DNA from: Halorubrum sp. PV6
Lineage (GTDB): Archaea; Halobacteriota; Halobacteria; Halobacteriales; Haloferacaceae
DNA: 64,000 nucleotides
Assembly: GCF_003990725.2 (NCBI RefSeq)
Contig: NZ_CP030064.1
Span: forward strand, 806,001 to 870,000
Direction of reading: 5' to 3'
Part shown: in pieces, positions 1,260 to 27,241 of the stretch
Numbering within the stretch: position 1 is the stretch's first letter
Layout: each line of letters starts with the position of its first letter
The notes under the pieces: model-generated
Told to the model about the DNA's origin: nothing
What the model saw: the letters and a program-made list of their open reading frames with translations, nothing else
Database searches by the model: none
Translations under genes and position numbers: made by a program

Positions 1260-2330
1260 TCACTGCGCGTCGAACGCCCGTTTAAACGCGGGGATGTTGA
1301 CCTCGGTCATCTGCTCGAGGTAACCGTACCCGGCGTCGTTCCACTCGCGGGTCGTCCCGCCGGCGGGCGTGACCGGAACCGCCGCGGTCGCGTCGCTGTT
1401 CTCGACTATCGACTCCGCGAGCCGCGACGACTGGAAACGGTCGTACAACACCGTGTCGATCCCCTCGCTGTCGACGAGGTCGATCGTGTCGGCGATCTCC
1501 GTCTGCGTCGGCTCGTTCTGCGGCGAGACGCCGACCGGCGAGTGAAAGCGGAACCCGTAGCGAGCCTCCAAGTACTGGAAGGAGTTGTGGCCCGCCATCA
1601 CGGCCACGTCGCGCGCGGCGGTGTCGGCGATGGACTGGAACGCGTCGTCGACGGCGGCGAGTTCCTCGCCGTACGCGGCCGCGTTGTCGGCGTACGCCTC
1701 GGCGTTGTCCGGGTCCGCCTCCGAGAGGCCCGCCGCGATCGTCTCGACGATGTCGGCCGCGAACACCGGGTCGACCCAGACGTGCGGATCGTGCCGGCTG
1801 CCCTCGTGCTCGTCGCCGCCGTGTTCGTCGTGGCTGTGTTCGTCGCCGCCGTGTTCGTGGCTCGTGTCCTCGTGTTCGTCGTCGTGGCTCTGGGTCTCCT
1901 CCGACTCGTGGCCGGCTTCCGCGTGAGAGTGGTCCCACTCGAGGAGGTCGCCCTCGAGGCCCGCGAGGCCGTCGATCACGGCCACCGTGTCGTAGTCGGC
2001 TTCGAGCGTCGCGGCGAGGTCCTGCGCCCACGAGAACTCCGGGTTGTCGAGGTAGACGAACGCGTCCGTCGACGCGACGTCTGCGGCGAGCGTCCCGTCC
2101 GGCGTCCACCCGTGGCCGAGCTGCCCCACGTCGACGGGGTCCTCGAAGGTCGCGTGGTCCCCCGCGACCTGGTTCGCCCAGTCGTGCAGCGTGAAGAAGG
2201 CGGCGTAGCCGGAGTCGAACTCCTCGGACCCGCCGCTCGCGGTGTCGGAACAGCCCGCCAACGACGCCGCCGTCCCGGCGAGCGCGATCCCCGCACCGCG
2301 CCGCAGCACCGACCGCCGTGAGTGTGTCAT
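1260..2330 (-). CDS. znuA: Metal-binding Tat lipoprotein, ZnuA type (cluster A-I)
   Basis: Extracellular substrate-binding lipoprotein of the importer (356 aa). The N-terminus SRRSVLRRG with a hydrophobic stretch and lipobox LAGC (Cys27) indicates Tat export and lipid anchoring, the usual haloarchaeal route. Residues about 130-185 form a long His/Asp/Glu-rich loop (HSHDEHGGDEHEG and similar) followed by DPHVWVDP. Such loops are characteristic of ZnuA-type zinc-binding proteins. Later conserved segments include MAGHNSFQYLEARYGF. It is first in the operon, upstream of the ATPase and permease. The His-rich loop argues for zinc over manganese, but this is inferred. Confidence 0.92.
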   Translation of the reverse strand: MTHSRRSVLRRGAGIALAGTAASLAGCSDTASGGSEEFDSGYAAFFTLHDWANQVAGDHATFEDPVDVGQLGHGWTPDGTLAADVASTDAFVYLDNPEFSWAQDLAATLEADYDTVAVIDGLAGLEGDLLEWDHSHAEAGHESEETQSHDDEHEDTSHEHGGDEHSHDEHGGDEHEGSRHDPHVWVDPVFAADIVETIAAGLSEADPDNAEAYADNAAAYGEELAAVDDAFQSIADTAARDVAVMAGHNSFQYLEARYGFRFHSPVGVSPQNEPTQTEIADTIDLVDSEGIDTVLYDRFQSSRLAESIVENSDATAAVPVTPAGGTTREWNDAGYGYLEQMTEVNIPAFKRAFDAQ

Positions 2331-25154: not shown

Positions 25155-25274
25155 CGGGCTGCGACGAGCCCCGCGTGAACCTCCTCCGAGACCGGTGACC
25201 GATACCCTGCGCTCCGCGACGCCGAATTTCTGTCAGGTGACACGTTTATGTTACTGTGGCACGTGATACCGCCT

Positions 25275-25496
25275 ATGAGCGACACGGTTGACCCCGAAGA
25301 GCGCATCGACGACACGACGACCTGGCCGGACCTCGCGGTCGGTCTCTACGACCGGCTCACCGGCCGGAACGCGGAGATCATCTACGAGTTCGAGGAGATG
25401 AGCGTCGACGTCCCGAGCGGCACCGGCGACGACGCCGAACACGCCAACTGGCGGGTCGACGGCACCGTCCGGGTGACGACCCGTGAACGAGACTGA
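25275..25496 (+). CDS. Haloarchaeal hypothetical protein (first of an overlapping pair)
   Basis: 73 aa acidic protein: MSDTVDPEERIDDTTTWPDL then GLYDRLTGRNAEIIYEFEEM and a beta-rich C-terminus. I do not recognise a family. It overlaps the following gene by 14 nt and is probably co-translated with it. The TATA-like tttatgtt (25245-25252) is at about -26 relative to the ATG at 25275. Confidence 0.65.
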   Translation: MSDTVDPEERIDDTTTWPDLAVGLYDRLTGRNAEIIYEFEEMSVDVPSGTGDDAEHANWRVDGTVRVTTRERD

Positions 25497-25872
25497 CGCG
25501 AGGGCACCGCTCTCGGTCGTCACGGAGGACCTGACACTCTCGGTCGCGGGCGTCGACCTCGACGTCCGATCGACCGGGGACCGCCTGTTCGTCGAGGTGG
25601 CGACGGTCCGCGACGCGATCCGCGTCGCTCGGCACCTCCCGAACGACACCGACGCGCGCGGGCCCACCGCGCTGTTGACGACCACGGACCTCACGACCGA
25701 ACTCCGGGTTCGCGGTCGGACGGTCGCCGTCCTCGGCGCCGACGCGCGTCCGGGACTGCTCTCCCGAGAGTTCGGCGTGGCACCGGCGGAAGCGCGGGTG
25801 GCGGGCGTCGTCGGGGCCGCGGCCGGCGGCCTCTCGGCCGTCGCGAGCGCGGTGCGGCGACGGCTCTCGTGA
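25483..25872 (+). CDS. Haloarchaeal hypothetical protein (second of an overlapping pair)
   Basis: 129 aa, GTG start inside the previous gene. Beta-strand-rich (LSVVTEDLTLSVAGVDLDVR, FVEVATVRDAIRVARHL), with a hydrophobic Ala/Gly/Val segment at about 104-125 that could be one membrane helix near the C-terminus, ending in RRRLS. No family recognised. The overlap and shared strand suggest the two proteins act together. Confidence 0.62.
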   Translation: MNETDARAPLSVVTEDLTLSVAGVDLDVRSTGDRLFVEVATVRDAIRVARHLPNDTDARGPTALLTTTDLTTELRVRGRTVAVLGADARPGLLSREFGVAPAEARVAGVVGAAAGGLSAVASAVRRRLS

Positions 25873-25930
25873 GCGGCCAACGCTTTTGCTGACGCGTCGT
25901 TCCGGCGACTCTGTGGGTTAATACTGTGGT

Positions 25931-26260
25931 CGACTGCCGGCGTCGCTCGCTACTCGTGGCAGTCGGCACAGGCTCGACGGATCGAACCGACAGCGTGGCT
26001 GCCGTCCCACCCGGTGTTTGTCGTCGGGTGGGGACGGCGAGGGGCCCGTCACATGACAAGAGTCCACGGCCGCGGGTCGGTCGAGACCAGAGGCGATTTC
26101 GCGCTTGGCACGTCAGAGACGTGAGTCACACGCCGACCGTGGCTGTTTGCGAACAGGGTGAGCGTCGCGTCGGGTCGCGGTGGGGATCGCGACCGACGGG
26201 ACGAACGACGCCCGGTACGGGCTCCGACCGGGCAGACACCGACGGGGGAGTTGATCCCCG
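25931..26260. ncRNA. Candidate structured RNA (chain of hairpins)
   Basis: Inverted repeats seen by eye: cgactgcc/ggcagtcg (25931-25938 with 25958-25965); gccgtcccaccc/gggtggggacggc (26001-26012 with 26026-26038, one bulge); cacgtc-aga-gacgtg (26109-26123); ctgtt-tgcg-aacag (26143-26156); cgtcgggtcgcg/cgcgaccgacg (26168-26179 with 26188-26198, one bulge); cgggg/ccccg (26243-26260). A TATA-like gttaatact (25917-25925) could drive the plus strand, with T5 at 26322 as terminator. A TATA (26312-26319) could equally drive the minus strand. RNase P and SRP RNA core motifs were looked for and not seen. It may be nothing more than GC-rich chance pairing. Confidence 0.25.
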
Positions 26261-26485
26261 CCATCACGGCACGCGATCGGTGTTACCATACGTTACTCGA
26301 AGACCGAACGCGTATATATGCTTTTTCCTTATATTCTTGTAGTAATCTGCTTGAATACTCATTGATCGATTCACTATCACTTTTATTTCAAAACGAACGC
26401 GAACGACGAGTCCGGCCTGAACGCGCGGTCGGCCCGGTCAGCGTCGCGCGATCTTCGCGTCGCTCGCGTCGCGGTTTCGGAACCC

Positions 26486-26516: not shown

Positions 26517-26589
26517 GCCGGAGTAGCTCAGCTGGCAGAGCGATTCCTTCGTAAGGAATAGGTCGAGGGTTCAAATCCCTCCTCCGGCT
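26517..26589 (+). tRNA. tRNA-Thr (anticodon CGT)
   Basis: Cloverleaf of 73 nt. The acceptor stem gccggag pairs with ctccggc at the 3' end, followed by discriminator T. The D arm is ctcagctggcagag. Anticodon stem attcc/ggaat encloses loop ttcgtaa with anticodon CGT. The T arm is gaggg-ttcaaat-ccctc. No intron and no encoded CCA. Its 3' end is not repeated elsewhere in the window, so there is no sign of an integrated element using it. Confidence 0.95.
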
Positions 26590-27082: not shown

Positions 27083-27241
27083 ATGTGTGTCTGTACCAAA
27101 CACGGGCGTATGCGACCACAAACGCAAACAACCGAACAAGAACTGTACGAATGTTTCAATTGCGGGGCGCGGACGAAGGCCGCCGGCAGCTGTGAGTGCG
27201 GCGGCGAGCTCCGACATATCGGCCGCTCACGGGATCTGTGA
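27083..27241 (+). CDS. Rubrerythrin-like zinc-ribbon mini-protein
   Basis: 52 aa with ELYECFNCGARTKAAGSCEC and CGGELRHIG, a rubredoxin-type CxxC...CxCGG knuckle like the haloarchaeal rubrerythrin-like-domain mini-proteins (DUF7129-like, from memory). The N-terminus adds CVCTKHG, giving extra cysteines and a histidine. A start at the next ATG (27110) would give the more usual 43 aa form. TATA spacing favours 27083. Confidence 0.7.
   Translation: MCVCTKHGRMRPQTQTTEQELYECFNCGARTKAAGSCECGGELRHIGRSRDL

Follow-up and report, generated by a model that had tools for sequence, protein, structure and literature searches.

The region examined here lies within a 64,000-nucleotide stretch of the Halorubrum sp. 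PV6 genome (GCF_003990725.2, contig NZ_CP030064.1, positions 806,001 to 870,000), referred to as the window, in which a Pcc1-like protein gene and tRNA-Thr(CGT) are separated by 644 bp without a credible gene. The original prediction was that a chain of six hairpins in this gap, at positions 25931-26260, might represent an unnamed structured RNA preceded by a TATA-like element and followed by a T5 run. The gap is real and the two strongest stems are present at the predicted positions, with 13 pairs and a bulge in the stem at 26001-26038 and 11 pairs and one bulge in that at 26168-26198. In the single sequence the folding excess is only modest, with z-scores of -2.1 on the plus strand and -2.6 on the minus strand and 1 of 100 shuffles as good in each case, such that one genome alone could not decide the question. 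The features of the locus are listed in Table 1.

Table 1. Features of the locus in window coordinates, with the sequence evidence for each
Feature	Position	Strand	Description and support
Small ORF	25271-25496	+	About 75 aa, overlapping the start of pcc1; 78-92% identical in other Halorubrum species
pcc1	25483-25872	+	Pcc1-like protein gene (named from sequence knowledge, not by a library search), convergent with the RNA; a matching ORF lies upstream in 23 of the 30 loci examined, including the window's own
Structured non-coding RNA	25990-26290	-	About 300 nt; 5′ end inferred at about 26288-26290, 3′ end uncertain, about 25990-26001
P7 terminal hairpin	26001-26038	-	Six pairs with changes on both sides; C-G 15 / U-A 12 at 26034/26005
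Inferred pseudoknot, 3′ half	26044-26049	-	ACGGGC, inside the near-invariant stretch UUGUCAUGUGACGGGCC
P4	26065-26141	-	26141-26135/26071-26065, enclosing P5 and P6; G-C 15 / A-U 13 at 26140/26066
P6 hairpin	26087-26108	-	CCAAGCGCGAAAUCGCCUCUGG, the part shared with Halopenitus; nearly invariant in Halorubrum, A-U to C-G swap in Halopenitus
P5 hairpin	26109-26123	-	A-U 20 / G-C 10 and U-A 28 / C-G 2
P3 hairpin	26168-26198	-	Four pairs with changes on both sides; lengthened in five loci of a divergent Halorubrum clade
P2 hairpin	26210-26233	-	Loop CGGAGCCCGU, carrying the invariant GCCCGU; U-A to U-G in 9 sequences, G-C to A-U in 6 sequences
Inferred pseudoknot, 5′ half	26217-26222	-	GCCCGU in the P2 loop; complementary to the 3′ half and unchanged in all 30 aligned sequences, no covariation
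P1 domain	26236-26283	-	Closing stem 26283-26278/26241-26236 with adjacent hairpins P1a (26270-26260) and P1b (26259-26245, loop AUCRAMU); three P1 pairs with changes on both sides, 12 G-C to G-U changes in P1b, more in a 44-sequence set
Promoter	26311-26333	-	BRE-like AAGGAAAAAG followed by a TATA box (CATATATAC here; ACTAAATAC or CATAAATAC in relatives), about 27 bp upstream of the inferred start
tRNA-Thr(CGT)	26517-26589	+	Divergent from the RNA
Small cysteine-rich protein	27084-27241	+	About 50 aa (CxxC), resembling a zinc ribbon, preceded by an AT-rich promoter-like stretch

Conservation of the intergenic region

A DNA search found the region in all 34 same-genus genomes tested, at 69-86% identity in the best match. 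In an alignment of the whole gap, conservation runs from about 25990 to 26290, drops between about 26285 and 26310, returns at 26311-26333, and is lost again until the tRNA promoter at about 26477. The first of the originally predicted hairpins (about 25931-25967) and the TATA-like element near 25918 lie in non-conserved DNA, and the T5 run near 26325 is, when read on the other strand, the purine-rich BRE of a minus-strand promoter. A covariance model of the region, R1, finds the element in 51 of 52 Halorubrum genomes, including all 46 of good quality, and nearly always once, the one miss being a genome that is 79% complete. Full-length matches reach down to 96 bits in a divergent clade, and one Halorubrum genome (G391) carries two copies with equal scores on different contigs (C3:393275-393580 and C5:166023-166328). 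The region is not protein-coding, as most species have stops in all six frames, gap lengths are not multiples of three, and substitution rates are similar at the three codon positions.

In 7 of the 30 loci examined neither the 75-aa ORF nor the Pcc1-like gene was found upstream of the RNA, and in several of these the RNA is followed directly by the 3′ end of a methyltransferase gene, whereas the link to tRNA-Thr persists. In most other genera of the family that were read, tRNA-Thr follows that methyltransferase gene closely with no such RNA between them, indicating that the RNA came to this place in the Halorubrum lineage.

Strand, predicted structure and promoter

Consensus folding of 30 aligned relatives gives -206 kcal/mol on the minus strand compared with -156±6 for 100 column shuffles, none of which was as good (z -8.3), and a smaller excess on the plus strand (z -5.4). 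The structure has 71 pairs in 11 helices, counting an inferred pseudoknot, with 94.8% of cells paired and 19 pairs showing changes on both sides, and 86 cells are compensatory compared with 36.7 in shuffles and at most 14 when the pairing is slid by 1-3 positions. As shuffles ignore kinship, the inferred substitutions of each column were also re-placed at random on a tree of 44 sequences, with 140 compensatory cells observed against 39.5±12.4 expected (z 8.1; largest of 200 runs 81) and 93.7% of cells paired against 84.0±1.9. The structure was derived from these same sequences and the absolute numbers thus lean in its favor, although an excess of this size is unlikely to come from that alone. 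The compensatory changes proposed in the original prediction as a test of the stems at 26001-26038 and 26168-26198 are present. G-U pairs exceed A-C mismatches by 114 to 58 when read on the minus strand, where the null gives 231 to 235, as is expected if the minus strand is the RNA, and an independent strand-neutral listing agrees.

The promoter block TATAAGGAAAAAG(C/A)(A/C)TAWATAC is kept in most relatives while the sequence between it and P1 is variable, and BRE and TATA box are the basal promoter elements reported for haloarchaea (PMC4983044). Its distance to P1 fits the inferred start, whereas no clear or conserved terminator was seen. Taken together, the data support the original prediction of an unnamed structured RNA with two changes, in that the transcript is placed on the minus strand, driven by the TATA at about 26312 that had been mentioned only as a possible promoter for the opposite strand, and the limits shift to about 25990-26290. 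The P2 loop is inferred to pair with the ACGGGC about 170 nt further on, giving a compact pseudoknotted core that holds the near-invariant single-stranded pieces, namely the P2 loop, UUGUCAUGUG, and the P6 loop and internal loop. As the pseudoknot never varies, it is plausible but remains an inference. The P1b loop resembles a tRNA T-loop but lacks U54, and no more than a resemblance is suggested.

Relation to known RNAs and distribution outside Halorubrum

At gathering thresholds the only Rfam 15 match in the window is the tRNA, low-threshold hits are at chance level, and six homologous loci give only tRNAs above the cut-off. The absence of recognizable RNase P and SRP RNA noted in the original prediction is borne out, as the only genomic match to RNase P RNA (RF00373) over the cut-off is at 2496627-2496939 of contig C1 and the only match to archaeal SRP RNA (RF01857) is at 773908-774219 of the same contig. 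Archaeal SRP (7S) RNA is comparable as a single-copy stable structured RNA of about 300 nt, and RNase P RNA as a stand-alone gene of about 300 nt with pseudoknot-like long-range pairing. The intergenic sRNAs of Haloferax volcanii likewise have their own promoters and in most cases an unknown function, but the RNA described here has a far more constrained fold, and no homologue of it was detected outside Halorubrum and Halopenitus in genomes sampled across the order. Orphan large structured RNAs such as OLE, ROOL and GOLLD (cf. PMC12286853) share an ornate fold, covariation and a long-unknown function, whereas the present RNA is smaller and archaeal, with no sequence relation shown. Stand-alone structured RNAs are familiar, and what is new is a family in Halorubrum that matches none of the known families tested. 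No paper describing it was found in the library searched, which is not proof of absence. Very few large structured RNAs are known from archaea beyond rRNA, tRNA, RNase P, SRP and guide RNAs. The family suggests that lineage-restricted structured RNAs can become near-obligatory, and its model is ready for use in annotation.

Outside the genus only Halopenitus, in 3 of 3 genomes, has a convincing partial relative, consisting of the hairpin plus CCACGCGCRAAAUCGCCGCUGG with an A-U to C-G swap. A second model, R2, gives E-values of 1.7e-8 to 9.3e-8 for these elements, but was built with the Halopenitus sequences included, and the independent evidence includes the R1 match. The element (loci L087, L088 and L089, about 1515-1612, minus strand) is intergenic and conserved, shares the P5-P6 part of the RNA, has a TATA-like stretch upstream, and sits between genes that appear from their sequences to be DUF460-like and isochorismatase-like. 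Pattern and model searches across the order and family gave nothing else convincing, with two candidate loci reading as coding sequence. A search upstream of tRNA-Thr in sister genera found no RNA there, the best scores being low and the two inspected lying in coding sequence. Phage and plasmid collections gave no match, and viral-contig hits to the P6 pattern show only the 22-mer or a weak 45-nt match and not the RNA.

Possible function and alternative explanations

The folded shape has been preserved by matching mutations in every good Halorubrum genome examined, and the RNA almost certainly does something important, although its role is unknown. The sequence evidence, in the absence of transcript data, indicates that the locus very probably encodes a structured non-coding RNA on the minus strand, nearly always single-copy and under strong purifying selection throughout Halorubrum. 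Downstream on the minus strand lies the 3′ end of the convergent pcc1 or of the methyltransferase gene, and as no gene is positioned there to be regulated in cis, as would be required of a leader or riboswitch, the RNA likely acts in trans. It is somewhat more likely than not that it works chiefly by binding a protein through the inferred core rather than by base pairing, as the RNA of an RNP or as a protein-regulating RNA, although no protein partner is known. This overall reading is held with reasonable confidence. Confinement of the family essentially to one genus plus a partial match in Halopenitus would be unusual for a housekeeping RNP RNA.

An alternative is a trans-acting regulatory sRNA that base-pairs with mRNAs through one of its invariant single-stranded stretches, with the fold serving for stability. 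Most haloarchaeal intergenic sRNAs studied are thought of as regulators (e.g., PMC3956466, PMC12482152), and both the RNA's own promoter and its trans location would fit such a role, but the invariant 13-mer GTCACATGACAAG has no second site in its own genome with up to 1 mismatch, and the RNA is long, GC-rich and mostly paired, with an invariance that extends into helices and a putative pseudoknot. Base pairing as the main mechanism is therefore less likely but not excluded. A modification-guide RNA of unusual form is very unlikely. Several hairpins are present and guide RNAs are common in archaea, but by inspection of the 30-sequence alignment no ACA trinucleotide is conserved 3′ of P2, P3, P4, P6 or P7 and no box C (RUGAUGA) or box D (CUGA) is conserved, no Rfam guide family matched, and the longest continuous complementarity to rRNA, without modeling of bipartite pockets, is 10 nt, within the 9-12 nt of shuffles.

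It is equally improbable that the conserved block belongs to a plus-strand transcript, for instance the 3′-UTR of pcc1 ending at the T5 run. A T-rich stretch is conserved at about 26323-26331 and the plus strand also folds better than shuffles, yet the G-U bias and the larger z-score favor the minus strand, the part next to pcc1 is not conserved, and the RNA persists where no pcc1 is found upstream. A DNA-level element such as a recombination, replication or protein-binding site is also very doubtful. Inverted repeats form in DNA as well and the locus abuts a tRNA gene, but pairing kept across about 70 positions including distant helices, a strand bias in G-U changes, and a promoter at the right distance are signs of RNA. 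A more speculative possibility, considered unlikely but not excluded, is a previously undescribed core RNP RNA or even a ribozyme of Halorubrum and Halopenitus, with a pseudoknotted structure of about 300 nt and an unrecognized cellular role, that appears to have arisen or been relocated within one haloarchaeal lineage. Parts of the RNA may also occur in another context, as in one Halorubrum genome (G025, contig C31; locus L198, 1449-1572) a P6-like motif and a P1a/P1b-like motif (GCCGTGATGGCGCGGATCGAATCCGC, with a compensatory G:C swap) lie within 125 bp of each other just upstream of a PCNA-like gene, in swapped order and with long alternative inverted repeats, perhaps representing a regulatory leader that uses the same modules.
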